Shown: positions 3,339 to 59,600 of the stretch, one piece after another
How positions within the stretch are numbered: the first letter of the stretch is position 1
Layout: the number at the start of each line of letters is the position of its first letter
Assembly (NCBI RefSeq): GCF_009905215.1
Contig: NZ_CP047593.1
Span: forward strand, 2,546,900 to 2,610,899
DNA: 64,000 nucleotides
DNA from: Tichowtungia aerotolerans
GTDB lineage: Bacteria > Verrucomicrobiota > Kiritimatiellia > Kiritimatiellales > Tichowtungiaceae
Direction: 5' to 3'
Program-made: the position numbers and the translations under genes
The notes under the pieces: generated by a model
What the model was told of the DNA's origin: nothing
The model's input: only the letters and a program-made list of their open reading frames with translations
Databases searched by the model: none

Positions 3339-3357
3339 GCAGTTGAAAGGAATGACG

Positions 3358-4506
3358 ATGAAATGGACTGATGTAGTTTTGAGTGGAATTTTACTGGCTT
3401 TGGCAGCGGGATGTTCGACGCCGTCGTCGCCGCAATGGATGGTCTGCGCCAACGACCAGCGCCACACGCAGGTCGATGGCAACAACCGGGTCTATGAAGA
3501 TGCCAAACCCGGCTCGCTGACCCTCATGGATGTTTCCTCCGGTTTGCCGCGCACCGTTGAAACGCTTGAAAACGTGCCGTGCAGTCTGATCGGCCCGCCG
3601 ACCTGTGTTGCGGTTGCCCCCAGCCAGAAATTCGCGCTGGTGGCCGCCGCCCAAAAGGTCGATCCGGATAATCCGTCAGAACAGATTCCGGACAACAAGC
3701 TTTCGGTTGTCCGGCTCGAAAAAGGAGCGCATGAGGTTTTCCAAACATTGGAACTTGGCGTGCAGACCTCCGGCGTGGAAATCAGCCGCGACGGAACCCG
3801 TGCACTGATCACCAACCGTGGGGAGGGCACTATCACCCTGCTGGAACTCAATGATGAGGGCGTTGTGAAAGTGCTCGGCACTTTCAAGGTGTCTGACGAA
3901 AAAAGCAACGTGTCGCACGCCGCATTTTCGCCCGACGGTTCGCTGGCCATCGCCACACTGCAAAACCACGATGCCGTCGCGCTGCTCTCTCTCAAAGGCG
4001 ACCAGATTAACGTTGTCCAGCAGATCGAGGTCGGCGACGGACCGTATTGCGTTGAGTTCCTCGGCAGCGGCGACTTTGCCGTGGTTGCTAATGCGCTCGG
4101 TGGAAGTCTAATGCTCGTCGAAGTCAAACCGAAGGGCATCAAGGTAGTGGACACCATCCCGGTCGGGATTGTTCCCGAAGGAATTGATATCAGCCCGGAT
4201 GGAAAATGGATGGTGGCCAACTGCCTCGAAAACACCTCCCGTAAGCCGACCGTTCCCTCGCGCCGTCAGACCGGCATGCTGGTGCTGATGGAAAAACAGG
4301 GGCAGACCTTTGTTACGGTCGACGTTGCCCGGATCGGCCGGATTCCTCAGACTGCGGTCTTCACGCCGGATTCGCGTTTCGTTGCAGTCGGCAGCAATGA
4401 GAATCAGGACATCACTTTTTTCAAAATCAAAAACGGCGAACTGAAACCAACGGGGATTCAAGTTCCCTGTTCCGGTGGACCGGCGGCCATGCGAATCGCA
4501 AACTAA
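3358..4506 (+). CDS. Beta-propeller lipoprotein (YncE/lactonase-like)
   Basis: A 382-residue lipoprotein: the signal sequence ends in a lipobox (LALAAGC). The ATG at 3358 is preferred over the one at 3352 because the GAAAGG ribosome site is seven bases away. The body is a run of blades with motifs such as SPDGSLAIATL, SPDGKWMVAN and TPDSRFVAVGS, the pattern of the 7-bladed YncE / 6-phosphogluconolactonase propellers. It may be an extracytoplasmic lactonase or a binding propeller; no catalytic set can be assigned by eye. A copy of the TTTTCCAA-n3-TTGGAA palindrome lies inside the gene at 3736-3754 and codes for FQTLE. Confidence 0.75.
   Translation: MKWTDVVLSGILLALAAGCSTPSSPQWMVCANDQRHTQVDGNNRVYEDAKPGSLTLMDVSSGLPRTVETLENVPCSLIGPPTCVAVAPSQKFALVAAAQKVDPDNPSEQIPDNKLSVVRLEKGAHEVFQTLELGVQTSGVEISRDGTRALITNRGEGTITLLELNDEGVVKVLGTFKVSDEKSNVSHAAFSPDGSLAIATLQNHDAVALLSLKGDQINVVQQIEVGDGPYCVEFLGSGDFAVVANALGGSLMLVEVKPKGIKVVDTIPVGIVPEGIDISPDGKWMVANCLENTSRKPTVPSRRQTGMLVLMEKQGQTFVTVDVARIGRIPQTAVFTPDSRFVAVGSNENQDITFFKIKNGELKPTGIQVPCSGGPAAMRIAN
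3736..3754. repeat. Palindromic TTCCAA/TTGGAA element inside a coding gene
   Basis: GTTTTCCAA ACA TTGGAAC within the beta-propeller gene, read as F-Q-T-L-E. Member of the dispersed family described in the findings. Confidence 0.7.
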
Positions 4507-12600: not shown

Positions 12601-14089
12601 GGTTGACACGAACGTTTCGGCATACATTCAGAACAGTGGACTTAACGGCGATTCCGCCGGGCGAACCATCAAGTTCGGCAACTATTGCGACAACTTTTCA
12701 CACGAAAACTTTTCCCGCAATAACGGTCTGTCTGAATGGCAGAGCGTGGAGGTGACGCTCGCGAGTGAATTTTTCCCGAGCTGGCACTGGACATGGGCTG
12801 TGGAGGACTGGGTTTATCCCGACCAGTATAAACGCGACCGGCTCATCATGCTTGAGCCTGAAGGTGCTGACTGGAGCACCGACTACGGATACGGAGGCTG
12901 GGTGCAGTTGCATGACGGCTCCATCTATGCGGTGGACTACACCCTCGGCGAAGAGGGGACAGTCGGGGATCGAGGTTCATTGGGGGCGGATCCGTTTATT
13001 CGCGGATACCGACTCTACGAGAGCGACTTCGACTTTGCCCCCGTTGTGGACGCAACGCTGGAACTCAATGCCGCATTTCCCGGCAACGATCCGGATAATG
13101 TCTGGGAACCGATTGTCGGCAGTGGCGGAACGCTGCTCACGGCCGGCGGTAGCGAATGGCTGCCGCAACCAGATCAGGACGGGAATATCCCCTGCTATCA
13201 GTTTGATTGCACCAACGGCCTCGGCGGACAGGCTGCGGCTTATTCCGCTTCCGGGCTTTCGTTTGATTATGACGACGATTTTTCAGTCGAGGTCTGGTTT
13301 AAGCCGGAGAAAAGCGTCGCCGCCTCCGGGCGAATGCACCTGATCGGCAACCAGCTTGCCGGGGAGGCCGGTTCGGCCTGCGGCTGGCGGCTGACCGCCC
13401 GGCAGATATCCGGGACAGATCGGTTTTTTATGGAGCTGACACTGCGCGATAATCTTGGCACCGACCGTGTCACCTATCAGGTCCGCACCTCGGAAACGTG
13501 GCCAATGGACCGGTGGACTCATGTCCTCGCTGTGTATGACGGTGTGCCCGGCGCGGTTCCTATGATGCAGATTTATGTGAATGGCGAGTATGCGCCGCTA
13601 GTGATGCAGAGCGGCACGCTTGTTCCGCCCGCCGAAGACCGGGATTTCGTGGTGCCGAATCAGGAACTGTCCGTCGGTGCACGCGGACGGTTGGCCGTCT
13701 CCGCCGATGACGACAACCGGCAATGGTTCGGCGGGTATATTTCCATGATCAGGGTTTATGCCGGGGCACTGAACAACACGCAGTCGAACCGTACGGTTAA
13801 CGAGGATGCCGATAACGACGGATATACGGTCTGGCAGGAGTATATGACCAACACCGATCCGTCCGACCCGCAAAGCCGGTTTACATTCGGGGTTTCCAGC
13901 GGAAATGCTGTGAGTTTCGATAGTTCGGCTCAGAGCCTGTACACATTGGAGTATGCCGACAGCCTCATTTCCAATGTTTGGAAAGCCGTTGGCCTTCCCG
14001 TCAGCGGAACCGGCGGTCAGTTATTCATCAACGTCACCAACAACACCCCGCAGCGTTTTTACCGGCTCAAGGCCGAGCCGCTGCCCTGA
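9638..14089 (+). CDS. Giant secreted LamG / sialidase-type (Asp-box) protein
   Basis: A 1483-residue exported protein. Start at 9638 because GGGAG lies five bases upstream and a signal peptide (MKMLKLAILLAVEASLGQA) follows. Order: an N-terminal beta-rich region with a YYWGDTSNWVGG motif (autotransporter/Pectate-lyase-like repeats, ~20-260); a LamG-type jelly roll (FDYDDDFSIEVWV, ~360-530); a sialidase/BNR propeller with three Asp boxes (SDDNGATW, SIDDGLTW, SKDQGQTW, ~590-890); a linker beta domain (~890-1000); a second LamG domain (FDYDDDFSVEVWF, ~1210-1375); a calcium-loop-like DADNDGYTVWQEYMTNTDPSD segment; and a terminal beta domain. The predicted job is binding and trimming sialylated or related glycans at the cell surface. 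Whether the propeller is catalytic cannot be told by eye. A palindromic element sits at 13968-13984 (SNVWK). Confidence 0.8.
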   Translation: MKMLKLAILLAVEASLGQADTIDFTEGGTQTNGFYYWGDTSNWVGGSLPDGGDLARYNSLDMGAFLDNDQTIASLSIQKAGSGLTGTNTLTLASYLIMGADDSLTLSGSVRVDVNNYTKITGSSAVTLNDNSFIDLDNVYSDDAANVFMFTLNSNSTATVLNAHGSSLGFASGSCFVLNGSSALASTSLTVEEWYAGYLTNGIVLKLNDTASIQFQTSGNNASDIIAHNAGGYLLINGSSNAVEGVDYTYDPGTGVLQAMLEPPVISESQAPLFYLDSRRPGPRPIYNTDTNSPLPTWEGLMTGAYFPVRGVNITDPADYPLWVTADAYGSMAYHQFTFESDTHGGRIAMPDVSYGNTGFDYDDDFSIEVWVCPERSPALADGRMHLFGNQTVDGQGYRLTAKEETGGLYSIEFEMQDVSGETTRYGCSTSADFQMGEWIQVVGVYDGNSGAVPSMKIYVNGVDQQAEWDGDLTVPADSNFIPDFLLTTMGARGKSDAPTLDSDRHYFEGKLSVMRLYTNVLSAADVEKNYNGERARFKGELFNWLPKPDFHTNAVPHYKTWTNGTHRSQMMRLPSDRRVTIAAEDGHYLCRVDVAQTKSGRLICAFLDNSDHTGRGDPGDFSHVGVSVSDDNGATWHDPNDPAESYGLVRSGWWDTDGYGHKVVNISYHPELGSNGVTVINTGRVYNEAIHPDAEAHHILFWSIDDGLTWSTQSLTNIPTSNVSPDRIRVLDNGDWVILGHATRRPTVWYSQPRGEETLIRSKDQGQTWLPVSELVQSQDHKSWHESSLLDTGGGNLVVYMDDMTWQSYPTFRCYSRDYGHNFSPPVMAPWFGQKNESGLLNSGKVFTLFRTHGTEEGYTAHLGDPFETNNIMPVTSFCYDQNRIRLYPDRLTLDSGEGNFQATMYTLPPTVDPSDRVTFKARLRCLSGDVNACHIDVGLPVMIRTNRVELLDDPAIGFDVDATQWIDLEIDRDGGSLLITCDETLMVDTNVSAYIQNSGLNGDSAGRTIKFGNYCDNFSHENFSRNNGLSEWQSVEVTLASEFFPSWHWTWAVEDWVYPDQYKRDRLIMLEPEGADWSTDYGYGGWVQLHDGSIYAVDYTLGEEGTVGDRGSLGADPFIRGYRLYESDFDFAPVVDATLELNAAFPGNDPDNVWEPIVGSGGTLLTAGGSEWLPQPDQDGNIPCYQFDCTNGLGGQAAAYSASGLSFDYDDDFSVEVWFKPEKSVAASGRMHLIGNQLAGEAGSACGWRLTARQISGTDRFFMELTLRDNLGTDRVTYQVRTSETWPMDRWTHVLAVYDGVPGAVPMMQIYVNGEYAPLVMQSGTLVPPAEDRDFVVPNQELSVGARGRLAVSADDDNRQWFGGYISMIRVYAGALNNTQSNRTVNEDADNDGYTVWQEYMTNTDPSDPQSRFTFGVSSGNAVSFDSSAQSLYTLEYADSLISNVWKAVGLPVSGTGGQLFINVTNNTPQRFYRLKAEPLP
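13968..13984. repeat. Palindromic element in the LamG/sialidase gene
   Basis: TTTCCAATGTTTGGAAA near the 3' end of the gene, read in a second frame as S-N-V-W-K. Confidence 0.7.
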
Positions 14090-14105
14090 AAAAGGAATGA
14101 AACAG

Positions 14106-15746
14106 ATGAAAAAACGAATGGGACTTCTTTGCCTGATAATTGGTTCGGCAACCTGCTTTGCCGAACTTAACATCGCTGATGTATTTAGCGATCACATGGT
14201 GTTGCAGCGCGAAAAACCGGTTCCGGTCTGGGGCCGGGCTGATGCAGGAACTCTCGTAACCGTCGAGTTTGCAGGGCAGAAAAAAACAGCGGTTACCGAT
14301 TCTTCCAACCATTGGAAAGTTCTGCTTGACCCAATGGCGGCATCTTCAGAGCCAAGGGTTCTTCAGGTTTCGGATTCCGAGTTTCAAGTTTCCCTTTCCG
14401 ACGTCCTCGTCGGAGAGGTTTGGCTCTGTTCCGGTCAGAGCAATATGGGCTTCCCGCTCTCCAAAGCGATGAACGCCGAAGCGGAAATCCGGGCGGCAGA
14501 CTATCCGGAAATCCGGCTGTTGAAGGTGGAGCAGCGACTCGACTGTGTTCCGCGGGATTATTGTGAAATATGGGGCGGCGGCTGGATGCACTGTTCTCCG
14601 GAGGTGGCAGAACGCTTTACCGCCGTGGGGTATTTTTTCGGTCGCGAGTTGCATAAACAGCTCGGCATTCCGATCGGACTGATTCAATCGGCGTGGGGTG
14701 GCTCCCGCATCGAAGCTTGGACAGACTGGAGCAGGATGAAAAATGATCCGGTGGCCGGTCACCTGCTTCCGCTCTGGGAGGATATGATTGCCGGCATTCC
14801 CGACTATCATCAAAACTTTGCGTCCTATGCAGAAGCATTCGATGCCCGTGCGCGTGAACTGGCAAAGCAGAAGAAAGATTGGGAGGCCGCCAAACGGGAG
14901 GCAATTAAAAACCGCAAGCGGTTCAAAGAGCCGATGCCGAAAGCCGATCCATTGCTGACTCCCGGTAACAAGCACACGCCAGCCTCGATTTATAACGCCA
15001 TGATTGTGCCGTTGGCTCCCTATGCACTGCGCGGAGCAATCTGGTATCAGGGGGAGTCGAACTCTTCGCGGCCGATTACCTACCGTGCCCAGCTTCCGCT
15101 CATGATTCAAAACTGGCGCGACCTGTGGGGCGATCAGAAGATGCCGTTTTATGTGGTTCAGCTGGCCAATCTCGGACCGCAGCAGCAGAATCCGGTCGAA
15201 TCCTCCGCCGGCTTTGCCGACTTGAGAGATGCTCAGCAATTTACAGTTCAGAACGATCCGCACATGGCACTTGCAACCGCTGTAGATATCGGCGAATCGG
15301 GAGACATTCACCCGAAAAACAAACAGGAGGTCGGCCGGCGCCTTGCTCTACCGGCACTGAACCGAATCTATGGGAAATCCTACGAAGACAGCGGCCCCGT
15401 ATTCGAGTCGTTGAAACAGGACGGAAATTCCTTGTGGCTGACATTTTCACACGCCGGTGGCATGCACGCCAAAGGCGGCGACGAACTTAAAGGATTTGCC
15501 ATCCGCTCCGAAAGCGGCCAATGGGTCTGGGCGAAGGCGCGGATTGAGGGAGACCGGATTGAGCTTTCCGCCGACGGCGTGGTCGCACCGGTGGCCGCCC
15601 GCTACAGCTGGGCCCGCAACCCGATTGGTAATTTAATGAACAGCGCAGGACTGCCCGCCATCCCGTTCAGAACCGATTCACAGCTCTCTGCGCAGGAATT
15701 GCAGGATCAGGATAGAATCAACGAATACAAAAGGAGTCAAAAATGA
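14106..15746 (+). CDS. Sialate O-acetylesterase (SGNH family), exported
   Basis: A 546-residue protein. The start at 14106 follows AAAGGA by nine bases and gives a signal peptide (MKKRMGLLCLIIGSATCFA). SGNH blocks: GEVWLCSGQSNM with the nucleophile Ser near residue 118, GAIWYQGESN near 310, and DIHPKNKQEVGRRLA (Asp/His pair) near 400. The family removes O-acetyl groups from sialic acids or other sugars, opening them to sialidase. This fits the neighbouring Asp-box protein. A palindrome lies at 14301-14319 (SSNHWK) and a TTTCGGATTCCGAG-type repeat stretch at 14366-14397 (reads VSDSEFQVSL), both in frame. It overlaps the sulfatase start by ATGA. Confidence 0.88.
   Translation: MKKRMGLLCLIIGSATCFAELNIADVFSDHMVLQREKPVPVWGRADAGTLVTVEFAGQKKTAVTDSSNHWKVLLDPMAASSEPRVLQVSDSEFQVSLSDVLVGEVWLCSGQSNMGFPLSKAMNAEAEIRAADYPEIRLLKVEQRLDCVPRDYCEIWGGGWMHCSPEVAERFTAVGYFFGRELHKQLGIPIGLIQSAWGGSRIEAWTDWSRMKNDPVAGHLLPLWEDMIAGIPDYHQNFASYAEAFDARARELAKQKKDWEAAKREAIKNRKRFKEPMPKADPLLTPGNKHTPASIYNAMIVPLAPYALRGAIWYQGESNSSRPITYRAQLPLMIQNWRDLWGDQKMPFYVVQLANLGPQQQNPVESSAGFADLRDAQQFTVQNDPHMALATAVDIGESGDIHPKNKQEVGRRLALPALNRIYGKSYEDSGPVFESLKQDGNSLWLTFSHAGGMHAKGGDELKGFAIRSESGQWVWAKARIEGDRIELSADGVVAPVAARYSWARNPIGNLMNSAGLPAIPFRTDSQLSAQELQDQDRINEYKRSQK
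14301..14319. repeat. Palindromic element in the acetylesterase gene
   Basis: TTCTTCCAACCATTGGAAAG, read as S-N-H-W-K. Member of the dispersed palindrome family. Confidence 0.7.
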
Positions 15747-22837: not shown

Positions 22838-24823
22838 ATGCCGACATTCGCCATTGATTTTGAAACCTACTACGACCGCGCTTACTCCCTGAAAAAAATG
22901 GATGCGTGGAGCTATGTCCATCATCCCAAGTTCGACTGCTATTTAATGAGCGTGTACGGAACCGTACCGCAGGCTTCTAGCCTGCCTTGTCCCGATTTCC
23001 AATCATCCAACATCCAACAATCCACATCACACACTCTCTTCCGCTGGGTCGGCCATCCGAAAGATTTCCAATGCTGGGAAAAACTGGAAGGTGCATTGCT
23101 GCTGGCCCACAACGCAGCCTTTGACTCGCTGGTTTTCCGCCGCCTGCAAGAACTCGGCGTCATTCCCGATTGGGTAGGGCAAGCTGTCCCCAGCGAGCCG
23201 TCTCCCCACCAATCCACCAATCCCATATTCCACCAATCCTCTCGCGACCTGCGCTGGAGGTGCACTGCCAGTATGGCTGTGTATCTCCAAGCGCCGAGGT
23301 CGCTCAAAGGGGCCTGCAAGCAGCTTCTCGGAATCGAAGTGGACAAGACCCAGCGGTCTAAAGCGTGCGGACAAACCACCGGCGATCTGTTTGAAGCCGA
23401 TGCGATGACCGATTATGCGCTGGAAGATGCGCGACTCTGTTTTCTGCTTTGGGAAAAACACCATCACCTTTGGCCGGAGGATGAGCAGGAACTGGCAACT
23501 CTGACCTTTGAATGGGGGCAGACCGGTATCCATGTTGATTTCCAGACTCTGGAAAAATGTATCCAGACCTTGGAACAACAGCGCTTCGATGCGGTACAGC
23601 TTTTGCCGTGGGTTGATGATTTCACCGAGGACACTCCGTTATCACACCGCCAGCTTGCGCTCGAATGCCGAAAGGCGGGCATCCCGGCACCGGCATCTTT
23701 GGCTATGGATTCACCGCTTTGTGAAGCGTGGGAAAACAAATATGGCGAAGAATATCCCTGGGTGAATGCAATGCGGATTTTCCGCAGAACCAACATGCTG
23801 CTTTCCCGTTTTTACGCGATCCGCAACCGATTGGTTGTTTCAGGTGGGGCGACACCTCCGGGGGAGCCGTCTTCTGTAGCTGCGGGCGTTGACCGCGGAA
23901 TCTCTCCTAAAGCCCAAAGCCTAAAGCCTATGGTCTTCCCGTATTCCCTCAAATATTTCGGTGCGGTGCCGGGAAGATGGTCAGGTGATTCAGGGTTCAA
24001 TGTGCAGAATATGCCGAGGGGAGAACTGTTCGGTGCCAACCTTCGGAAATGTTTCCAACCTTCGGACGGCAACATTTTTATCATTGCGGATCTCTGCCAG
24101 ATCGAACCCCGAATTTTGGCATGGTTGATTGATGATGCAGCGTTTCTCGATCTGGTTCAGAGTGGCGTGGATATTTACGAAGCCCATGCGCGTTCAACGA
24201 TGGGATACACCGACCCGGAGCCCCTGAAAGAAAAAGACCCTGCTATGCGCTCACTGGCAAAGGCACGTGTGCTGGGGCTGGGATACGGATGCGGACCGAA
24301 AAAATTCATGACCGTGGCTAAGAATCTCGGCGGGATTGAACTTTCGTTTGCCGAAGCAAAACAAACCGTTGCCGACTTCCGATCCAAGAACACCAGAATT
24401 TCCAGACTCTGGAAATGGCTGGATCGGGATTTTAAGCACAGTGCCGGAGGGGACTATTCCATCGAACTGCCGTCCGGTCGGTGCCTCAATTATTTCGATG
24501 TTCAAAAAACATCACGCGGCTACTTCACGGCCAGAACCGTGCGCGGCGGACGGGAACGAAGCCTGTACGGCGGACTGCTCTGCGAAAATCTGGTTCAGGC
24601 CACCGCCCGGGATCTCTTCGCGCAACACCTTTTGGAAATACATCGTTCAGGCATTGGGAGAATCGTTTTCCATGTTCACGACGAAGTGATCGTGGAAGTG
24701 CCGAAAGAACGGGCAGGGGAAACAAAAGAGCAGATCCTCGAAATCATGCGCACCACGCCGGACTGGCTGTCCGGTTGTCCTGTCGATGCCGAAGCCGGAA
24801 TTTTTAACCACTACACCAAATAA
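22838..24823 (+). CDS. Family A DNA polymerase with 3'-5' exonuclease domain
   Basis: A 661-residue phage replicative polymerase. Exo motifs: FAIDFETYYD (residues 4-13), AHNAAFDSLVF (~89-99) and DYALEDARLC (~191-200). Polymerase motifs: A, FIIADLCQIEPRI (~412-424); B, KARVLGLGYGCGPKKFM (~475-491); C, FHVHDEVIVEV (~612-622). All catalytic acids are present, so it should be active. Three segments look like inserted repeat DNA read in frame: residues ~48-64 and ~120-137 (CCAATCCACCAATC-type) and ~335-365 (a 30-base repeat shared with position 28391, then an AAAGCC-type repeat). At least three TTCCA/TGGAA palindromes also lie in the gene. Confidence 0.95.
   Translation: MPTFAIDFETYYDRAYSLKKMDAWSYVHHPKFDCYLMSVYGTVPQASSLPCPDFQSSNIQQSTSHTLFRWVGHPKDFQCWEKLEGALLLAHNAAFDSLVFRRLQELGVIPDWVGQAVPSEPSPHQSTNPIFHQSSRDLRWRCTASMAVYLQAPRSLKGACKQLLGIEVDKTQRSKACGQTTGDLFEADAMTDYALEDARLCFLLWEKHHHLWPEDEQELATLTFEWGQTGIHVDFQTLEKCIQTLEQQRFDAVQLLPWVDDFTEDTPLSHRQLALECRKAGIPAPASLAMDSPLCEAWENKYGEEYPWVNAMRIFRRTNMLLSRFYAIRNRLVVSGGATPPGEPSSVAAGVDRGISPKAQSLKPMVFPYSLKYFGAVPGRWSGDSGFNVQNMPRGELFGANLRKCFQPSDGNIFIIADLCQIEPRILAWLIDDAAFLDLVQSGVDIYEAHARSTMGYTDPEPLKEKDPAMRSLAKARVLGLGYGCGPKKFMTVAKNLGGIELSFAEAKQTVADFRSKNTRISRLWKWLDRDFKHSAGGDYSIELPSGRCLNYFDVQKTSRGYFTARTVRGGRERSLYGGLLCENLVQATARDLFAQHLLEIHRSGIGRIVFHVHDEVIVEVPKERAGETKEQILEIMRTTPDWLSGCPVDAEAGIFNHYTK
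22997..23030. repeat. CCAATCATCCAAC-type low-complexity insertion in polymerase gene
   Basis: Reads as a Gln/Ser-rich loop (FQSSNIQQSTSH) between exonuclease motifs. A second such stretch is at 23208-23243. Confidence 0.6.
23843..23872. repeat. 30-base exact repeat, copy in polymerase gene
   Basis: Identical to 28391-28420 in the phage non-coding block. It contains GGTGGGGCG and CGGGGGAGCCG. In frame it codes for GGATPPGEPS in a loop before motif A. Confidence 0.85.
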
Positions 24824-24832
24824 GGAGGCCCC

Positions 24833-26938
24833 ATGCTTTTATCCATAAAAAATCTATCATCCTGTCATGCCACCGAGTGCGAGCCCTGGAATACAACGTC
24901 GCAGGCTTCGCAGAAAACCCAGTGGAACAAACCCGATGTGGAACACTGTTTTTATTCCGGTCTTGAAGGTCTGATTGCAGCATCACGGATTGACAGTAAA
25001 AATAATCCGGCGGTCTTCCTTCATTGGCTGGTTGCCGATTATGACGGACAGATCGATCAGCACATGCGCGATACGGTCTTGGAGCGTTGTGGTGATTTTA
25101 AACCCCAATACATCTGCCGCACCTTTTCAGGCGGAGCACGTCTTCTGTGGAAACTGGAACAGCCTTTCCCGCTGCACAAAAATGATCTGACGGCGAAGCT
25201 GTTGAAGCAGGTTCGAAAAAAACTGAAGCTCTCAAAACTACTGGTCGGTCTGGACACGGCGGCCTTTGAAGATCCGGCGAAATACTACGAGTTGGGTACT
25301 GATTGGGTTGAACTTTCGAGCGATGTAATCCCGGCTCCCTTCATGATGCAATGGGCGATTGAGTCCACCCATAACTACGCTTGGAAAAAACTCGGCCCTT
25401 CGATCCCGATGGACCTCATCGCGGCGGAGGTAGAAAAACAGTATCCGGGTCAGTGGCAGGGTGAATTTGAAGTCGGTGTGCGCGGTGTGCGGTTCTGGGA
25501 TTCGTCCGCCGATAATGAGACGGCGGCGGTGATTCGTGAGTCGGGAATGCAATGTTTTACAGGTGGTCAGGCGTTTGTGCCGTGGTCGGCGATTCTTGGT
25601 GGAAAATTTGTACGTCAGTTCCAGGCGGCTCAGATCGGCGGGTCTATTTCCGAAGTCTATTTTGATGGTCGCGACTACTGGGTGCAGCTTTCCAACGGTC
25701 AGTGGCAGGCGAAAAATAAATCAGACATGGCTCTTTACCTGAAGGTGAAGCGCGGACTCAGTACAACGGTTCCGCGTGGTTCATCGTTCAGTGAAGTCGA
25801 TCAGGCATTATCTCGGATTCAGGACGATCAGGCCATCGCCTGCGCGGCTCCTTTAATTCATCGGCCCAAGGGAATTGTCCATCTTGATGGGTTCCGGGTT
25901 TTGAATATTTCAACCATTTCTGTTTTCCAGCCTTCGGAAAAAACAGACATTGATCCCGACACTGATTTCCCTTGGTTGCATTCGTACTTCTGTTCTCTGT
26001 TTGATCCCGATGAGCAGCTTGATTATTTCTACGCATGGTTGCGGCGGTGGTACTCTTCTGCTCTTGCTGGAAAAATGCTTCCCGGTCAGGCGTCTTTCTT
26101 TGCCGGCGTTCCGAACACTGGAAAAACACTTCTCTCTACGCTGATTCTCTCCCGCACATTCGGCGGTCATATTGATGCTTCGTCGTTTCTGTCCGGTGAA
26201 GATGGTTTCAATTCCCACCTGTTTAACTCGGCAGTCTGGGCGGTCGATGATGTGGTGCCGTTGACCGATAACAAATCCCATCTCAAGTTTTCCGCCCTGA
26301 TTAAAAAGATGGCGGCCAATCGCACCTTTTCCGTCCGGGAAAAATACCGTGTGGACAAGTTGATTGAGTGGAATGGCAGGGTGGTGGTGACGTGTAACAC
26401 CGACCCGGAGTCGATTCGTATTTTGCCGGACGTCGATTTATCCACCCGCGATAAAATCAATCTGTTCCGTGTGGCGGAGCGCGATACCTTTACCTTTCCA
26501 AACGATGTGGCGGACATGATCCATGCGGAGCTGCCGTTTTTCCTGCGCTGGCTTCTCGACTGGTCGCCGCCGGATCACGTGCTGGGTGATTCGCGGTACG
26601 GCGTCCAAACGTATTGTGAAGCATCCCTTTTCGAAGCGGCGCGTCATTCGTCGAGTGCCTATTCGTTCCTTGAGGTGTTGCTGAAGTTTTTCGAGGGACA
26701 GGTTTCCGATGTCTGGACGGGTTCTGCGACCGAGCTGCTTTCCGCCATGTTGAACGATCAGGACGGTCTCGCCGGTATCGCGGCCAAGTACACCACCCGT
26801 CAGGTCGGGCGGGAATTATCCAAGCTGGCATCTCAAGGTTATCCGCTGGTTCTGGAACGGCAAAGAACCAGGCGGGTTTGGCAGATCAACATCAAACAAT
26901 TATCCGAAGGAGTTCCCGATGATCAGGTACCTTTTTGA
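24833..26938 (+). CDS. Phage primase-helicase (DUF5906 type)
   Basis: A 701-residue protein. It starts after AGGAGG, ten bases from the polymerase stop. The N-terminal half resembles an archaeo-eukaryotic-type primase: LVADYDGQ near 62 (acidic pair) and FSGGARLLWKL near 97. The C-terminal half is a superfamily 3-like ATPase with Walker A GVPNTGKT near 425, Walker B-like VWAVDDVV near 468 and a sensor segment RVVVTCNTDPES near 515. Primase plus helicase in one chain next to a polymerase implies autonomous replication of the element. The stop codon overlaps the candidate origin repeats. Confidence 0.82.
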   Translation: MLLSIKNLSSCHATECEPWNTTSQASQKTQWNKPDVEHCFYSGLEGLIAASRIDSKNNPAVFLHWLVADYDGQIDQHMRDTVLERCGDFKPQYICRTFSGGARLLWKLEQPFPLHKNDLTAKLLKQVRKKLKLSKLLVGLDTAAFEDPAKYYELGTDWVELSSDVIPAPFMMQWAIESTHNYAWKKLGPSIPMDLIAAEVEKQYPGQWQGEFEVGVRGVRFWDSSADNETAAVIRESGMQCFTGGQAFVPWSAILGGKFVRQFQAAQIGGSISEVYFDGRDYWVQLSNGQWQAKNKSDMALYLKVKRGLSTTVPRGSSFSEVDQALSRIQDDQAIACAAPLIHRPKGIVHLDGFRVLNISTISVFQPSEKTDIDPDTDFPWLHSYFCSLFDPDEQLDYFYAWLRRWYSSALAGKMLPGQASFFAGVPNTGKTLLSTLILSRTFGGHIDASSFLSGEDGFNSHLFNSAVWAVDDVVPLTDNKSHLKFSALIKKMAANRTFSVREKYRVDKLIEWNGRVVVTCNTDPESIRILPDVDLSTRDKINLFRVAERDTFTFPNDVADMIHAELPFFLRWLLDWSPPDHVLGDSRYGVQTYCEASLFEAARHSSSAYSFLEVLLKFFEGQVSDVWTGSATELLSAMLNDQDGLAGIAAKYTTRQVGRELSKLASQGYPLVLERQRTRRVWQINIKQLSEGVPDDQVPF

Positions 26939-29527: not shown

Positions 29528-29579
29528 CCTCGGAAAATGTGGAAGCGGCTTCCAGCCGCTGGCCCTCTCTTTTTTCCAA
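29528..29579. repeat. Direct repeat of ~50 bases, copy 1
   Basis: Shared with 29706-29755 except for one extra T. It contains the hairpin AGCGGCT-TCC-AGCCGCT and ends in a TTCCAA palindrome half. Confidence 0.85.
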
Positions 29580-29901
29580 GCTCCGGAAATCGGCGGTCCG
29601 ATTTTTCCAATGCTCGGAAAAAGCAGCCCAAAAAATTCCAACGTCTGGAAAAAGTCCGCTGGATTTTTCCAACCCTCGGAAAAGCGAACCCCCATTTCTT
29701 CCAGACCTCGGAAAATGTGGAAGCGGCTTCCAGCCGCTGGCCCTCTCTTTTTCCAACCTCTGGAACGGCGAGCCCTCAAATTTTCCAGTGCCTGGAAATT
29801 CGCGTTCATTCGCGCAATTCGCGGTCAGAAATCTTCCAGAGTCCGGAAAGCGAAGCCGAAAATCTTCCAACCTTCGGATGAAATTTTTCCAGACCCCGGA
29901 A
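29571..29901. repeat. Dense array of ten TTCCA/TGGAA palindromes
   Basis: Imperfect palindromes of the form TTTTTCCA-n(4-6)-TGGAAAA begin near 29571, 29602, 29636, 29664, 29697, 29747, 29781, 29832, 29863 and 29884, so one every ~20-50 bases. Arms are conserved and the centres vary. Same family as the single copies in coding genes. Confidence 0.85.
29706..29755. repeat. Direct repeat of ~50 bases, copy 2
   Basis: Second copy of the repeat at 29528-29579. Confidence 0.85.
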
Positions 29902-30169
29902 CACCCGCGCCTGCGGGCCGCGGAGGGAGGGGGTGTCCGCAGGACGGGGGTGGGTGGACATCGAAGATGCATCGACTGACTGGAACGATGGAGTCAGCTC
30001 TGTTTCAGAATGTTTCACATTCTTGGTTTCCCCCCAGAGGGACCCCCCTTCCAGGCGCGTCGCGGGCGCGCCGCGCCCCCTGTTTCCTATTGATCTGATC
30101 AATGCGATGAAACGGTCTGAAACAATATGGCCGTCCGGTTGATTTGGGCTCTTTAGGTAAGGAGACATT

Positions 30170-30556
30170 ATGCCTTTTGAACCCGGACAATCAGGAAACA
30201 TCGAAGGCCGCCCTAAAGGAATCAAGAGCGGCCGCATGCTCGCGCTCGCTGAGCTCGACTCCATGCTCAAAGACGCGGGCGTCATGGAAACGCTTCGCGA
30301 CGGTCTCCAGAAGGCACTTGAAAAAGACCCTTCCTGGTTCTTCCGTCGCATCATCATGCCGCTGCTTCCGAGGGAAGCGACGCTCTCACTTGAAAACAAC
30401 GGAGAGTTCAAATGGAAACTCCTCAAAGATACACTCCCCATCGAGGACAGTCCCGAATACATCTCTCAAAGGCAAGATTCCGCGTTGTCTGCACCGGCAG
30501 GCGCTTCGGCAAAACCCTCTGTCTTGCCCGAGAAGTTGCCGAGAAGGGAGTCCTAG
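30170..30556 (+). CDS. DUF5681-type protein, likely small terminase subunit
   Basis: A 128-residue protein with an AAGGAG site upstream. It opens with the DUF5681 signature FEPGQSGNIEGRPKG, common in proteins directly upstream of phage large terminases. The middle is helical (MLKDAGVMETLRDGLQKAL). The last 48 codons overlap the large terminase gene in another frame. The likely role is DNA recognition for packaging. Confidence 0.75.
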   Translation: MPFEPGQSGNIEGRPKGIKSGRMLALAELDSMLKDAGVMETLRDGLQKALEKDPSWFFRRIIMPLLPREATLSLENNGEFKWKLLKDTLPIEDSPEYISQRQDSALSAPAGASAKPSVLPEKLPRRES

Positions 30557-31683
30557 ATCCCGGGGACTACGGATGGATCGCGCCGACCTACAACGTCGCC
30601 GACCGCGGACGCGAAGCATTTCAGCATGCGTTTGACCCCGCCTTCCTGCACTTCAGCGGACGCACCCCGTCGCGGCTTGAATTCACCAGTCCGAACGGCA
30701 CGAGCCGCGTCTGGTTTCTCTCGGCCGACAACCCCGAAAACATACGCGGCTACGGCTTCAAGGGCATTGTCGTTGATGAGGCGGCGGTGATCCCGCCGGA
30801 TGTGTGGAACTACATCTTGCGCCCGACCATCGCCCAGACACTGGGCTGGGCCGTGTTCATTTCGACCCCGAAGGGTCGCAACTGGTTCTACGATCTGTTC
30901 ACCCGCGGCGAAGATCTGCACGAGCCGGATTATGAATCCTTCCGGTTCCCTAGCATCGACAATCCGTTTTTTCCGCCTGAGGAATGGGAGGATGCCAAAC
31001 GGACGCTGCCGGCCGACGTGTTTCAGCAGGAGTACGAAGCGCAGTTCCTCGAAGACAGCGCCGGAGTCTTCCGCAATGTCTCGTCCTGTTTGTTTCCTCA
31101 GAGGGCTATTACCCGCGAAGACCGCGCGGGGGCGGTGGTCATTGGGTGCGATGTGGCCAAGCATACCGACTTTACGGTGCTCATTGCGATGAACCAGCGG
31201 ACGGGTCGCTGCTTTGAGATGGAGCGTTTCAATCAACTCGATTGGCCGGTTCAAAAAGACCGCATCCTTGAGTTCGCCCGCAAATGGCGCGGGCGGCTTT
31301 TGCTCGATGCCACCGGAGTCGGCGATCCGATCTATGATGACCTGGCACGTCGCTACTCCAATATCGAACCGTTCAAGTTTTCCGCTCAGTCCAAAGTGGA
31401 ACTGGTCCAGCGGCTGATCGTCGCTGTCGAACAGCAGCGGGTGAGCTGGCCCGAAGAATGGCAGGTGCTCACCAACGAAATGCAGCGCTACGAATACGAA
31501 ATCTCCGCCCGCGGTCGACTAAGCTATAACGCCCCGAGCGGATTCCACGACGACTGCGTGATGGCGCTCGCGCTCGCCAACCACCGTCGCTGGGAAACCC
31601 AGTCCGCCGGACCGATGATTCCGCTTGCACCCAAAGGCCGATTCTCGCCCTTCGCCAAACGCCCCCGATCCATGTTCGGCTGA
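30412..31683 (+). CDS. Large terminase subunit
   Basis: A 423-residue packaging ATPase-nuclease. Walker A CTGRRFGKT (residues ~27-35), Walker B GIVVDEA (~119-125), coupling motif FISTPKGRN (~145-153). The nuclease acids are in VIGCDVAKHTDF (~243-254), LLLDATGVGDP (~297-307) and HDDCVMALALA (~379-389). The start at 30412 follows GGAGAG. The frame overlaps the upstream gene by 145 bases, and since Walker A lies only ~27 codons in, the overlap is real and not a start error. Confidence 0.93.
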   Translation: METPQRYTPHRGQSRIHLSKARFRVVCTGRRFGKTLCLAREVAEKGVLDPGDYGWIAPTYNVADRGREAFQHAFDPAFLHFSGRTPSRLEFTSPNGTSRVWFLSADNPENIRGYGFKGIVVDEAAVIPPDVWNYILRPTIAQTLGWAVFISTPKGRNWFYDLFTRGEDLHEPDYESFRFPSIDNPFFPPEEWEDAKRTLPADVFQQEYEAQFLEDSAGVFRNVSSCLFPQRAITREDRAGAVVIGCDVAKHTDFTVLIAMNQRTGRCFEMERFNQLDWPVQKDRILEFARKWRGRLLLDATGVGDPIYDDLARRYSNIEPFKFSAQSKVELVQRLIVAVEQQRVSWPEEWQVLTNEMQRYEYEISARGRLSYNAPSGFHDDCVMALALANHRRWETQSAGPMIPLAPKGRFSPFAKRPRSMFG

Positions 31684-39671: not shown

Positions 39672-39733
39672 AGATGTGTCGCCGGTATCACCACCGCTCT
39701 GCTGTGTAAAAAATGAATCTGCTGCGGTTCGCG

Positions 39734-39783
39734 ACTTCCAAGGGTTGGAAAAATACGGTAGATGTTTTCCGATGTTTGGAAAT
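39734..39783. repeat. Two palindromic elements at the AlbA_2 gene start
   Basis: ACTTCCAAGGGTTGGAAAAA at 39734-39753 and TTTTCCGATGTTTGGAAAT at 39765-39783. The second contains the likely start codon ATGTTTGG of the next gene. Confidence 0.75.
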
Positions 39784-46039: not shown

Positions 46040-47104
46040 ATGCCAGGGCTGTACGTCCATATTCCGTTTTGCATACGCAAGTGCGATTACTGCGCATTCT
46101 ATTCGGAAGTTTCCGCGGATAGGAATAGGCAGCAGCGGTTTTTCCAATCTTTGGAGAAAGAACTGGGCAGCCTTCCGGCGAACTTCGTTCCGGAAACTGT
46201 TTTTATCGGCGGCGGCACGCCGACCGCGCCGGATTTCCAAGCCTTGGAAAAATTCTTCCCGATGTTTGTGAAATTCTCTCCGCTGGAGTTTTCGGTGGAA
46301 GTTAATCCGGGCACGGTGGATGTTGCGAAACTTTCCTTATTAAAGAGAATCGGAGTCAACCGGCTTTCGATCGGTGTGCAGTCGTTCGAGTCCCGATGTC
46401 TGGAAACTCTTGGAAGGATTCATTCGGCGGAGCAGGCCGACGAGGCGTTCCGCCGTGCGCGTGCTGCTGGGTTTGACAATATCAGTATAGACCTGATGTT
46501 CGGCATTCCGGGCCAGACGATGCAGGCGCTCGACGCTGATCTAGACCGGGCGCTGGCGTTCGGGCCGGAGCATATTTCGATCTATAATCTGATGTACGAA
46601 GAGGGTACGCCGCTCCTTGAGCGCAATCCGGTCCGGCTTGATGAGGAGATGGAGCGCGAAATGTATGATCATATTCGTGAGCGCCTCAAAGAGGCCGGCT
46701 TCGAGCATTATGAGATTTCCAACTTCGCGAAGCCGGGATTTGAGTGTCGCCATAACCTGCTTTACTGGACAGGCGGTGAATACATCGGTTGCGGCCCGGC
46801 GGCTCATTCGCATTGGAACGGAACACGATGGGCGAATGCTGCAGACCTGGACGATTACTGCGTTTATGGTCCGCGACGCGAGTTCGAGGAAACCCTCGAT
46901 CCGGTCGCCAAGGAGCGTGAGACGCTGGTGATGGGGCTGCGTCTGATCAATGGTGTTGATGTCGATCCGACGCTCTTTAAAAAGCTGCAATGCACCTTCC
47001 AGTCATTGGAAAATGAGGGATTGCTGGAGATTGATGGGTGCCGGGTTCGCCTTTCGGAGGATGCGTTGTTTGTGAGCGATGCGGTGTTTGCTGAATTGAT
47101 CTGA
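46040..47104 (+). CDS. hemW: HemW-like radical SAM protein
   Basis: A 354-residue protein. The start at 46040 gives PGLYVHIPFCIRKCDYCAF; a GTG at 46028 adds four residues. The radical SAM cluster motif is CIRKCDYC. Further HemN/HemW marks: FIGGGTPT (~59), VEVNPGTV (~92), RLSIGVQSF (~109) and DLMFGIPGQTM (~152). HemW is a heme chaperone, whereas true HemN decarboxylates coproporphyrinogen; the single CxxxCxxC followed by YC and not YCxF-C fits HemW. Three palindromes are in frame (FFQSLEKEL, FQALEKFF, FQSLENEG). Confidence 0.9.
   Translation: MPGLYVHIPFCIRKCDYCAFYSEVSADRNRQQRFFQSLEKELGSLPANFVPETVFIGGGTPTAPDFQALEKFFPMFVKFSPLEFSVEVNPGTVDVAKLSLLKRIGVNRLSIGVQSFESRCLETLGRIHSAEQADEAFRRARAAGFDNISIDLMFGIPGQTMQALDADLDRALAFGPEHISIYNLMYEEGTPLLERNPVRLDEEMEREMYDHIRERLKEAGFEHYEISNFAKPGFECRHNLLYWTGGEYIGCGPAAHSHWNGTRWANAADLDDYCVYGPRREFEETLDPVAKERETLVMGLRLINGVDVDPTLFKKLQCTFQSLENEGLLEIDGCRVRLSEDALFVSDAVFAELI
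46139..46253. repeat. Two palindromic elements in hemW
   Basis: TTTTTCCAATCTTTGGAGAAAG at 46139-46160 and TTTCCAAGCCTTGGAAA at 46234-46250. A third, CTTCCAGTCATTGGAAA, is at 46996-47012. All read as FQxLE. Confidence 0.8.
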
Positions 47105-51905: not shown

Positions 51906-52082
51906 ATGCGCAAATCGTTAATCTGGGCTTTGTCACTGATCGCACTCTGCGTGCTTTTCTTTATTTTTACCGACGGAAAAACCACCGTCGAATTTTTTTC
52001 CTATTCATGGAAGCTTGAAACATCCATTGCCCTGCTTGGCTTTACCGGGATTGGGATTGTCATAGGAGCGCTGCTTAAATGA
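51906..52082 (+). CDS. LapA-like small membrane protein
   Basis: A 58-residue protein with a GGAGG site; two hydrophobic helices (~4-22 and ~36-56) flank TDGKTTVEFFSYSWKLE, the pattern of the LapA (DUF1049) family of inner-membrane proteins linked to lipopolysaccharide assembly. Overlaps the next gene by ATGA. Confidence 0.65.
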   Translation: MRKSLIWALSLIALCVLFFIFTDGKTTVEFFSYSWKLETSIALLGFTGIGIVIGALLK

Positions 52083-53113
52083 GCGCTGAAAACAGGGTCG
52101 CCGTCGATGCAGTCATTCATCCCGGATGCCGGATCCTGAATTCATCAATCGGGCCGGGATGCGAGCTGGGTGCAGAAGCTCCGGTGACCCTCAAAAACTG
52201 TCGACTGGGCCGAAATGTAAAACTCAAAGGCGGATATTTTGAAGGCGCGGTATTTCTCGACGGCTCCAATATGGGCAGCGGAGCGCATGTGCGCGCCGGA
52301 ACCATCCTCGAAGAAAAAGCCAATGGCGCCCATACTGTCGGACTTAAACAGACGGTGCTTCTGCCGTTTGTCACTCTCGGAAGCCTCATCAACTTCTGTG
52401 ATGTGCTCATGGCCGGCGGCACCAGCCGTAAAGATCATTCCGAAGTCGGCTCGTCCTATGTCCACTTTAACTTTACACCCAACCAGGACAAAGCCACTGC
52501 CTCGCTTGTCGGCGATGTGCCGCGCGGCGTCCTTTTGAACCAAAAACCGGTTTTTCTCGGCGGACAGGGCGGACTGGTCGGCCCGAGCCGCATCGAATAC
52601 GGCAGCATCATCGCTGCCGGCGGCATCTGTCGCAAAGATATTCTTCAGGAAGGCCAGCTGTATGTGCCGCCAGCGCCGGTTGAAAAAATGAAACCTTTTG
52701 AGCCGGGCCGCTACGGAAACATCGACCGAATTGTTCAAAACAACCTTATCTACATCGGAAATATCAAAGCCCTTAAAGCCTGGTACGAAAATATTCGCGT
52801 TCTCTTCATTCGCGACGAATATGATCAGGTCTGTCTGGACGGCGCGATCGCTAATCTGGACCTGATTCTCAACGAGCGTTTCCAACGCTTGGAAAAACTG
52901 GGTGAAAAAGTTCCCGCGGTTGGAAGAAATCTTGCGGAAAATTCCAAGAATTGGAAAGCGCCGGTCGAGACTGTCGCCAGCGCCAGTCTGATGAGTGAAA
53001 TCGAAAAAGCGGAAAGAACCGATTATGTTAACGTGATCCAGAACCTGAGCCAAGGCGCACAGTTCGCCGCCACAGCCTGGTTGCAGGGCATTGTCAATGA
53101 GTCGATGATTTAG
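52079..53113 (+). CDS. Left-handed beta-helix sugar-nucleotide-type protein
   Basis: A 344-residue protein. Residues ~10-215 show hexapeptide-like turns (VIHPGCRILNSSIGPGCELG, VKLKGGYFEGAVFL, GSIIAAGGICRKD) as in GlmU-type acyltransferase and UDP-GlcNAc pyrophosphorylase-related proteins, with a conserved HTVGLKQTVLLPFVTLGSLINFCD core. The C-terminal ~120 residues are helical. It precedes glmM by 13 bases, so a role in UDP-GlcNAc or envelope sugar metabolism is likely. No nucleotidyltransferase signature is visible at the N-terminus. Two palindromes are in frame (FQRLEK at 52878, SKNWK at 52939). Confidence 0.7.
   Translation: MSAENRVAVDAVIHPGCRILNSSIGPGCELGAEAPVTLKNCRLGRNVKLKGGYFEGAVFLDGSNMGSGAHVRAGTILEEKANGAHTVGLKQTVLLPFVTLGSLINFCDVLMAGGTSRKDHSEVGSSYVHFNFTPNQDKATASLVGDVPRGVLLNQKPVFLGGQGGLVGPSRIEYGSIIAAGGICRKDILQEGQLYVPPAPVEKMKPFEPGRYGNIDRIVQNNLIYIGNIKALKAWYENIRVLFIRDEYDQVCLDGAIANLDLILNERFQRLEKLGEKVPAVGRNLAENSKNWKAPVETVASASLMSEIEKAERTDYVNVIQNLSQGAQFAATAWLQGIVNESMI
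52878..52957. repeat. Two palindromic elements in the beta-helix gene
   Basis: GTTTCCAACGCTTGGAAAAA at 52878-52897 and ATTCCAAGAATTGGAAAG at 52940-52957, in different reading frames of the same gene. Confidence 0.8.
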
Positions 53114-55670: not shown

Positions 55671-57070
55671 AAATATAGATCCCGCTGCCCGTTCTTAACC
55701 TGTTCGATGCGTTCGATCAGCTGTTTTTTTTGATCGCCGTCAGGCATGCGTTCGAGCTCGCGTTCAACCTGCTTCATCCCGGCTTCTTTTGTTTCCTCCG
55801 AGGCGTAGTCCTCGATGTACTCAAGAAACGTGAGGACGGCGTTCGGCGTGCAGAAGCGTTTTACAAAGCCCGGCACTGCAAACTCCATGAAGTGTTCGCC
55901 GGTGCGGCCGAGGCGGTAGCAGCCGGTGCAGAAGCTCGGCAAAAAGCCCGCTTCGGAGAGCTCGCGCAGAACCAGATCGAGCGGTCGGCCGTCGTTGAGC
56001 ACAAACTGGCTCTTTTCGTAGGATTCGCTGCCCTGGGTTGAGTAGGCGCCGACGCCGATGTCAGAGCCCGCGTCGATCTGTGAGACGCCGAATTCGATGA
56101 CTTCATTGCGGATCTCGACCGATTCGCGGCAGGTGAGGATCAGGCCGGTGTACGGAACGGCGAGGCGAAGGATGGCCACCAGCTTCTTGAAGTCGGCATC
56201 GTTGACGCCCGGGAACTGCTGGGTATCCGTTCCGATGGCCGGCTCGATGCGCGGGAAGCTGAGCGTATGCGGGCCGACGTTGTATTTCTCTTCCAGATGG
56301 ATCGTGTGGTAAAGCAGGCCCATGGCTTCGAATTTCCAGTCGAACAGTCCCATCAGCGCGCCGAGGCCGACGTCGTCGATGCCGGCGTCCTGCGCGCGGT
56401 CGAGGCCGTAGAGACGCCACAGGTAATCGCTTTTCGGTCCCGACGGATGAACGCTTTTATAGGTTTCCTGATGGTAGGTTTCCTGGAAAATCTGGTAGGT
56501 GCCGATGCCGGCGGATTTGACCAGTTTGTAGCCCTCGACATCCAGCGGCGCGGCGTTGATGTTGACGCGGCGGATTTCGCCGTTTCCTTTTTTGATGCTG
56601 TAGGTTTCCACGACGGTGTCGTGGATAAACTGCGCGTCATATTTCGGATGTTCCCCGTAGACCAGAATCAGGCGTTTGTGACCGCGGTCGACCAGTGCTT
56701 CAATTTCCTGGTCGAGCTCCGGCATGGTCAGGGTTTTGCGGGACACCTCTTTGTTGGAGCAGCGGAAGCCGCAGTATTTGCAGTTGTTGATGCAGTTATT
56801 GCCGATGTAGAGCGGGGCGAACAGGACAATGCGGTTGCCGTAGATGCGACGTTTCAGCTCGCGTGCGCCTTCGAAAATTTCCTCGAGAAGTTCCGGATCC
56901 TCTGTGTTGAGCAGCACGGCCATCTCTTCCGGGGCGAGTCGGTTTTTGTCGAGTGATTTGGCGATGATTTCGCGTACCCGTTTCGTGGTCGGGTTTTTCG
57001 TATTCTCCAATGTTTGGAAAATTTCAGCCTCGGGAATGAAGCTGGTTAGTCCTGTTGTATCGATTTTCAT
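55667..57070 (-). CDS. hydG: [FeFe] hydrogenase maturase HydG (tyrosine lyase)
   Basis: A 467-residue radical SAM enzyme that splits tyrosine to CO, cyanide and p-cresol and builds the Fe(CO)2CN unit. SAM cluster motif CINNCKYCGF (~93-102); auxiliary-cluster motif FCTGCYRLGRTGEHFM (~380-395) with the third Cys in KRFCTPNA. A palindrome near the N-terminus (57003-57022) is read as FQTLEN in a segment before the conserved core. Overlaps hydF by ATGA. Confidence 0.96.
   Translation of the reverse strand: MKIDTTGLTSFIPEAEIFQTLENTKNPTTKRVREIIAKSLDKNRLAPEEMAVLLNTEDPELLEEIFEGARELKRRIYGNRIVLFAPLYIGNNCINNCKYCGFRCSNKEVSRKTLTMPELDQEIEALVDRGHKRLILVYGEHPKYDAQFIHDTVVETYSIKKGNGEIRRVNINAAPLDVEGYKLVKSAGIGTYQIFQETYHQETYKSVHPSGPKSDYLWRLYGLDRAQDAGIDDVGLGALMGLFDWKFEAMGLLYHTIHLEEKYNVGPHTLSFPRIEPAIGTDTQQFPGVNDADFKKLVAILRLAVPYTGLILTCRESVEIRNEVIEFGVSQIDAGSDIGVGAYSTQGSESYEKSQFVLNDGRPLDLVLRELSEAGFLPSFCTGCYRLGRTGEHFMEFAVPGFVKRFCTPNAVLTFLEYIEDYASEETKEAGMKQVERELERMPDGDQKKQLIERIEQVKNGQRDLYF
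57003..57022. repeat. Palindromic element in hydG
   Basis: TTCTCCAATGTTTGGAAAAT; on the coding strand it reads IFQTLENT near residue 20. Confidence 0.75.
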
Positions 57071-58275: not shown

Positions 58276-59600
58276 TTATGGCCCAGTGACATCAGGTTCT
58301 GCGGGGAAAGGACTTTCTCGACCGTTTGTTTCCCCAGTTCTTTTTCTAAAAATTCGCGGATGGTTCCGTTGCTCAGCTGTTCAAACTGTTTGAACAGTTC
58401 GGCGCAGCGGTCGTATCCAAGCATTGGAACAAATGCCGTGATGATTTCCGGAGAAGCATACAGCCGTTCCAGACATTTGCCTTGATCTGCATCAATTTCT
58501 TCGGCGTGTTTGGCCAGCATCCGCGATGCAGTAACCAGCAGGTCGATCGACTCAAGCAGGGCGTCGGCCAGCAGCGGCATAAATTCGCAGATCTGCAGAG
58601 ACCCGCGTGCGACACAATCACTGATGATCGTGTTGTTGGCTTTTACCTTGATTCCAATCTGAATGATGCTTTCGAGAATCACCGGATTGACCTTGCCGGG
58701 CATGATGGATGATCCGGCCTGCACGGCGGGCAGTCTGATTTCGCCGAGCATCGCGAGTCGGCGCAGGTCGTCGCCGACTTTAATGAAATTGACCGCGGCG
58801 GCATTCAGAATTCCGGAGACTTCGACGAAGCAGTCGGCGTTGGCGGTTGCTTCGATCATGTTTTCCGCGCGGCTCAATCCCAGTCCGGTCTCTTCGCGCA
58901 GTTTCTCGATGACGAGGAAAATATAGCTGCGCGGTGCGGTCAGACCGGTGCCGATGGCTGTTCCACCGAGGTTGACGGTGCGCAACCGCTCTTCGCATTT
59001 AAAGGTGCGCCAGCGGTCGTGGGCGAACGCTTCGGCAAAGGATGCAAACTGCGCGCCGAGGGGCAGCGGAACCGCGTCGACCAGTTCGGTTTTTCCAAGC
59101 ACTGGAAGAGTCGCCCACGTTTTTTCCAAGGTTTGGAAAACGCCCTGAAGTTTGGCCAGGTCTTCGCTCAGGTCCCGTACGCCGCGAATGGCTGCGACCT
59201 TGAGTGCGGTCGGATAAGTATCGTTGGTTGACTGGTGCAGGTTGACTTCTTCGATCGGATGGGCTCCGGCTGTGAGTCCGATCAGTTCATTCACCATCAT
59301 GTTTGTGGAGGTGCCGGCGCCTCCCTGAAGAGCAGAGAGGGGAAGCTTGAAACTCGAAACCTGAAACTCGTCAACTGCAGTAATGATGGAATCAGCTTTT
59401 TCTGGAGCCAGATAGCCAAGCTCTTTGTTGGCGAGGGCGCAGGCCTTTTTGACGGCGAAGTATGCAGTGATCAGGCGCGGACTGACAGTTTTTCCTGGGA
59501 TCGGGAAATTATCCAGTGCCCGCGCGGTATGGATTCCCCACGGGCAATCCGCCGGAAGCGCCTTTTCACCAAGCTGATCTGTTTCGATGCGAGGTTTCAT
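58272..59600 (-). CDS. aspA: Aspartase/fumarase-family lyase in the hydrogenase-maturation operon
   Basis: A 442-residue aspartate ammonia-lyase type protein. Marks: GGAGTSTNMMVNELI (~93-107), EVNLHQSTNDTYPTA (~117-131), and the signature loop AGSSIMPGKVNPV (~296-308) with the catalytic Ser. It is coupled by 4-base overlaps to hydF and the TM1266-like gene. Aspartases are found in hyd operons of other anaerobes and may supply ammonia for the bridging amine of the H-cluster; the supply role is inference. Three repeat insertions are in frame: a GAAACTCGAAACCTG-type stretch (59346-59374) and palindromes at 59090 and 59120 (LPVLGK and FQTLEK). Confidence 0.87.
   Translation of the reverse strand: MKPRIETDQLGEKALPADCPWGIHTARALDNFPIPGKTVSPRLITAYFAVKKACALANKELGYLAPEKADSIITAVDEFQVSSFKLPLSALQGGAGTSTNMMVNELIGLTAGAHPIEEVNLHQSTNDTYPTALKVAAIRGVRDLSEDLAKLQGVFQTLEKTWATLPVLGKTELVDAVPLPLGAQFASFAEAFAHDRWRTFKCEERLRTVNLGGTAIGTGLTAPRSYIFLVIEKLREETGLGLSRAENMIEATANADCFVEVSGILNAAAVNFIKVGDDLRRLAMLGEIRLPAVQAGSSIMPGKVNPVILESIIQIGIKVKANNTIISDCVARGSLQICEFMPLLADALLESIDLLVTASRMLAKHAEEIDADQGKCLERLYASPEIITAFVPMLGYDRCAELFKQFEQLSNGTIREFLEKELGKQTVEKVLSPQNLMSLGHK
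59090..59141. repeat. Two palindromic elements in the lyase gene
   Basis: TTTTTCCAAGCACTGGAAGA (59090) and TTTTTTCCAAGGTTTGGAAA (59120), read in two different frames (LPVLGK and VFQTLEK) within 50 bases. Confidence 0.8.
59346..59374. repeat. GAAACTCGAAACCTGAAACTCG-type repeat in the lyase gene
   Basis: Reverse-complement relative of the stretch at 14366-14397 in the acetylesterase gene. Read as EFQVSSFKLP here and EFQVSL there. Confidence 0.65.

Follow-up and report, generated by a model that had tools for sequence, protein, structure and literature searches.

What is a short palindrome doing ten times over in front of the terminase genes of a prophage, and why do single copies of the same palindrome lie in other phage genes and in conserved host genes around it? 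The question is raised by the 64-kb window (the whole stretch of DNA analysed here), in which the first-pass annotation had described a self-complementary element packed into an array and scattered singly through host and phage genes. That description proved correct, on a larger scale than first reported.

The array and its motif

The prophage in the window carries terminase, portal, polymerase and helicase genes. The palindromes in front of the terminase genes, earlier counted as "about ten", comprise nine clear copies and one degenerate one, with spacings of 31, 31, 31, 32, 52, 32, 51, 31 and 22 bp.

29572..29903, ten phased palindromes, preceded by upstream phage genes and followed by those for the terminase
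29572..29590, site 1, TTTTCCAAGCTCCGGAAAT
29603..29621, site 2, TTTTCCAATGCTCGGAAAA
29634..29652, site 3, AATTCCAACGTCTGGAAAA
29665..29683, site 4, TTTTCCAACCCTCGGAAAA
29697..29715, site 5, TCTTCCAGACCTCGGAAAA
29749..29767, site 6, TTTTCCAACCTCTGGAACG
29781..29799, site 7, TTTTCCAGTGCCTGGAAAT
29832..29850, site 8, TCTTCCAGAGTCCGGAAAG
29863..29881, site 9, degenerate, TCTTCCAACCTTCGGATGA
29885..29903, site 10, TTTTCCAGACCCCGGAACA
30170..30556, + strand, putative terminase small subunit of 128 aa (sub-threshold DUF5681 match; assigned by its position just downstream of the array)
30412..31683, + strand, terminase large subunit (phrog_2, E 1e-44)

Two other repeats lie nearby. An exact 47-bp duplication, CCTCGGAAAATGTGGAAGCGGCTTCCAGCCGCTGGCCCTCTCTTTTT, occupies 29528-29574 and 29706-29752, 178 bp apart, and includes a GC-rich palindrome, GGAAGCGGCTTCC. 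A second, different inverted repeat (30001-30017, TGTTTCAGAATGTTTCA, and 30108-30124, TGAAACGGTCTGAAACA) is located between the array and the terminase, and is found in similar form in sister prophages.

Elsewhere in the window the motif was present at all of the positions listed in the first-pass annotation, within 1-2 bases of the starts given there; the copy at 24052, GTTTCCAACCTTCGGACGG, is degenerate.

3737..3755, host site in gene 3313-4506
13967..14319, host sites at 13967 and 14301
23064..25941, phage sites occurring singly, at 23064, 23538, 24398 (DNA polymerase gene) and 25923 (primase-like gene)
39734..39783, pair of phage sites at a distance of 31 bp in the helicase gene 39676-41199
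46140..46158, site in the hemW-like gene, FQSLE frame, conserved in position across most of the genus
46233..46251, site in the hemW-like gene
46995..47013, site in the hemW-like gene
52878..52958, two sites 62 bp (6 turns) apart in gene 52079-53113
57003..57021, site in the HydG-like radical SAM gene 55667-57070 (- strand)
59091..59109, site in the aspartase/fumarase-type lyase gene 58272-59600 (- strand), 31 bp from the site at 59122
59122..59140, perfect site, TTTTCCAAGGTTTGGAAAA, 31 bp from the site at 59091

The motif is a 19-bp palindrome, TTTTCCA-N5-TGGAAAA. Alignment of the sites in this genome gave the consensus (T)TTTTCCA R N S N Y TGGAAAA(A) with a symmetric logo, conservation ending at about 21 bp and nothing conserved further out. 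The centre, previously put at 4-6 bases, is fixed at five: with TTTCC/GGAAA spacings of 0 to 20 tried, this one occurred 220 times and the others at most 13 times each. Its abundance is far above chance. The window contains 25 matches at ≤2 mismatches against 0.38 expected, and none of 100 shuffles reached 25. The comparison of genome-wide counts with random expectation, which the first-pass annotation had named as a check, gave 607 copies at ≤1 mismatch (the strict rule) in the whole 3.88-Mb genome, a single contig, and none for the reversed pattern. A looser site rule yielded about 470 copies (471) in an evenly spaced sample of 1.264 Mb, about one third of the genome, which is the basis of the density and phasing statistics below; extrapolation gives approximately 1,440 copies genome-wide. 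Twenty-five motifs with permuted arms had 1-34 matches each in the same sample, and showed neither the abundance nor the clustering. The sites occur across the whole chromosome and in phages, inside genes and between them.

Helical register and genomic placement

The helical spacing of the sites, absent from the first-pass annotation, is the most informative property of the motif. Distances of ≤200 bp between neighbours are mainly 20-22, 29-33, 40-43, 51-53, 62-64, 73-74, 82-86, 93-95 bp and so on, which are multiples of 10.5. For the 158 pairs within 210 bp the vector strength at 10.5 bp is R=0.82, with a best period of 10.46; the phasing decays to R=0.64 at 200-400 bp and 0.31 at 400-700 bp, and is absent beyond. 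Because pairs in one array are not independent, the statistic was also calculated with one pair per cluster and the phage left out, which gave R=0.84 (n=86, p~1e-26). Coding-coding pairs have R=0.89, and a null in which sites were shifted in multiples of three, so that the frame was kept, reached at most 0.31 in 2,000 trials. The same phasing is found in other families, there with a dominant 31-bp lattice. A 10.5-bp register is characteristic of proteins that occupy a single face of the DNA double helix, and is not expected to arise from RNA hairpins, peptides or mobile elements.

Three arrays in other genomes are nearly mirror-symmetric (L258, L259 from G120, and L249 from G126), with spacings of 22-30-31-31-31-22, 22-31-31-30-22 and 22-31-30-22. 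Outside the phage, the largest cluster of the sample has five sites (L089 11226-11392); it is flanked by a gene resembling a pilus/type II secretion ATPase and by a divergently oriented one.

Using gene calls made for this analysis, site density per kb is 1.19 in convergent intergenic regions, 0.97 in tandem and 0.72 in divergent ones, and 0.28 in coding sequence; about two thirds of the sites are coding, and these are distributed uniformly along genes. In families f4, f10 and f22 the sites form mostly intergenic arrays of two to seven, and in f10 the first and last steps of an array are often 22 bp. The genes with at least two sites upstream are unrelated housekeeping genes. The sites are not promoter-centred.

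These figures bear on two alternatives. It is distinctly unlikely that the sites are operators of a very large transcriptional regulon under a global repressor or activator: the palindrome is of operator size, phased pairs are typical of cooperative regulators and the phage array precedes a late operon, but the lowest intergenic density falls in divergent regions, most sites are spread evenly through coding sequence, and the genes behind paired sites have nothing in common beyond housekeeping. We hold it highly improbable that the element works in RNA, as transcript hairpins serving as terminators or stabilisers. The inverted repeats do fold, to between -4.5 and -7.7 kcal/mol, and are somewhat more frequent in convergent intergenic regions; however, such stems are weak, an A-run and not a U-run follows the hairpin, most copies are coding, and a periodicity of the DNA helix is not what RNA would impose.

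Origin of the sites and their distribution among genomes and phages

Comparison of 30 hemW orthologues shows the sites standing in place of ancestral residues, with an insertion in hardly any case. The sites occur in three reading frames (FQxLEK, FPxxGK and FSxxWK) at homologous positions, with distances of 22, 31, 93 and 134 bp. These alignments show that sites in genes arise mainly by substitution; the clean insertions which had been anticipated for hemW were not seen, in-place substitutions being found instead. Neither are FQxLE segments ancestral in every gene, since relatives have other residues there, and sites have also arisen in the two other frames, which encode quite different peptides. 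The coding frame giving FQxLEK is preferred (131 sites versus 83 and 78), which would follow if selection acts on the DNA and the peptide that does least harm is tolerated. Between orthologues, mostly of hemW, identity is 83% in the arms, 70% in the flanks and 51% in the centres, 15 of the 68 comparisons having been set aside for an alignment gap at the site.

The first-pass annotation had considered a small mobile or self-copying palindrome, of the REP, MITE or RPE kind. The copies are certainly dispersed and numerous, and two arrays in genome G102 (L257, 300-410 and 7890-7980) have the same spacers and an 18-bp upstream flank in common, i.e. are a dispersed duplicate; lineage-specific centres also look homogenised. 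Those of the L257 arrays follow a variant rule, TTTTCCAYRSYRTGGAAAA. In the present genome the proposal is not supported: there is no common unit beyond about 21 bp that might have been cleanly inserted, the centres vary, hemW acquired its sites by substitution in place, and the helical register is kept. With the G102 arrays as the nearest thing to an exception, we regard mobility as quite improbable.

The citrate-synthase relatives of this genome place it in the Kiritimatiellales. In a survey of 289 genomes from the phylum, the motif was practically restricted to its class, the Kiritimatiellae, whose members have from 0 to 718 exact copies, distributed patchily among families and even within a genus; in one genus G015 and G016 are nearly without sites and G014 and G018-G020 are site-rich. 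The cultured relative Pontiella sulfatireligans F21 (G024) has 258 copies at ≤1 mismatch. No replacement palindrome was over-represented at ≥5 copies in site-free relatives, and the remnant sites of site-poor genomes, examined as a pointer to an ancestral regulator, were mostly chance-like. Nothing relevant on palindromes or inverted repeats in Kiritimatiellota was found in the open-access literature.

Abundance and patchiness together would be explained by an uptake or transfer signal. If fragments bearing the motif were preferentially taken up and recombined, copies would pile up by molecular drive, as with the DUS of Neisseria and the USS of Haemophilus, and hundreds to thousands of copies, core coding genes included, are indeed present; they have spread through core genes by substitution and are gained and lost between close relatives. 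The competence channel gene comEC was found in 22 of the 23 site-rich genomes tested, but it is equally present in most site-free genomes and, being nearly universal in the class, does not discriminate between them. The register is left unexplained by uptake, which needs neither alignment on one face nor 31-bp arrays of up to ten, and DUS and USS are not palindromes. We consider this explanation rather unlikely.

Arrays immediately before the terminase genes are found in the window prophage, in three prophages or remnants of the same genome and in two environmental phage contigs. Besides the window prophage, the prophages or remnants with this terminase type in the genome (G000) are L216, L217 and L224, situated around 703 kb, 2.945 Mb and 3.392 Mb. 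In two sister phage arrays the arms are 91% identical, the centres 55% and the spacers 39% (ungapped hand alignment). In the environmental viral contig IMGVR_UViG_3300035698_006241 (L261, 3427-3507) three sites recur every 31 bp, apparently within a gene or next to one. The arrangement would suit a phage packaging signal that has spread to the host, since four prophages and both contigs have the array directly before terminase genes; against this, relatives of that terminase have no array in the flanks examined, in site-rich (G024, G090, G126, G190) as in site-free hosts (G131, G154, G167), and we find the idea barely credible. The first-pass annotation had also taken the phage copies to imply long residence in this host lineage. 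That view gains from the arrays that related phages of site-rich hosts carry at the corresponding position, and from their absence at all five related terminase loci of site-free hosts, and loses from the several phages of site-rich hosts which likewise have none.

A candidate DNA-organising protein and known systems

A genome-wide protein-binding site, which was among the earlier suggestions, is strongly supported by the 10.5-bp phasing, the fixed spacer, the conserved arms and the variable centres. On this evidence of sequence, we think it probable that the palindromes serve a putative genome-wide DNA-organising protein, which would bind them cooperatively, as a dimer, along a single face of the double-stranded DNA. 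Each 19-bp palindrome would be the double-stranded site of a dimer, both halves being read as TTTTCCA and the 5-bp centre (R-N-S-N-Y in this genome) being neutral. We infer that dimers bind cooperatively on the same helix face at any whole number of turns, most often three or four; with such binding, selection would keep a new site near an old one only if it were in register. That the sites do not favour promoters speaks for an architectural role: the protein would act genome-wide and probably coat, wrap or bridge DNA, and would not be a regulator of particular promoters. The array kept before the terminase operon by phages that live in such hosts may serve to recruit this protein. A precedent is the Lrp family, whose dimers wrap DNA by binding to sites at intervals of two or three turns along one face (PMC2995911).

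The first-pass annotation had proposed looking for a conserved DNA-binding protein in motif-carrying genomes, and the candidates examined did not fit. AbrB is absent, PF04014 not being found in five site-rich genomes (G000, G010, G020, G099 and G126). The only AsnC/Lrp homologue of this genome is as common in site-free genomes, and its recognition helix is acidic and variable among site-rich ones. Autoregulation offered no route to the protein, the genes behind site clusters being ordinary. The AsnC-family protein (L274-L313) is single-copy, with an acidic helix-turn-helix, and is conserved through most of the class; its gene in G000 adjoins an aminotransferase-like gene.

More broadly, there is a little less than an even chance that part of the Kiritimatiellae has an undescribed chromosome-organising system, in which one protein has about a thousand palindromic sites or more, their helical register is maintained across hundreds of bp, selection rewrites residues of conserved enzymes, the whole is switched on or off between close relatives, and resident phages make use of it. 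That some members of a site-rich genus have almost no sites sits oddly with an essential architectural system. Most nucleoid proteins known so far either lack specificity or recognise few specific sites. If the proposal is true, this genome records in its sequence, coding and non-coding alike, how a protein organises the chromosome; protein sequence would be shown to bend to DNA-level selection, the FQxLEK, FPxxGK and FSxxWK segments in proteins of the class being DNA-site artefacts and not peptide motifs, and the system could be tested in cultured relatives such as Pontiella.

The closest parallel in geometry is with the arrays of the Lrp/AsnC (FFRP) proteins, for example Ss-LrpB and FL11, which bind cooperatively and wrap DNA at palindromic dimer sites placed on one face, two or three turns from centre to centre (PMC2995911). 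Dimer-size sites at such distances on one helical face are found here too, but they are far more numerous, lie in coding sequence as well and use every whole-turn spacing, and the single AsnC homologue present here does not follow their distribution. AbrB and Abh show widespread, NAP-like binding. Their bipartite TGGNA motif in Bacillus subtilis (PMC11135676) is matched by TTCCA-N5-TGGAA, which contains two inverted copies of TGGNA (TNCCA-N5-TGGNA); in contrast, no PF04014 protein was found in this genome or in four other site-rich ones. The present sites resemble Neisseria DUS and Pasteurellaceae USS in having more than a thousand copies, tolerated in core genes and gained or lost between relatives, and differ in being palindromic, helically phased, arrayed and found in phages too. 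NrdR boxes form pairs of palindromes about 31-32 or 42 bp apart, but are few in number, located at nrd promoters and of different sequence. Lastly, the sites of MatP (matS), Noc, SlmA and other chromosome-organising proteins are dimer-bound palindromes, matS with a variable centre, and number tens in restricted regions, whereas here more than a thousand sites extend over the whole chromosome.
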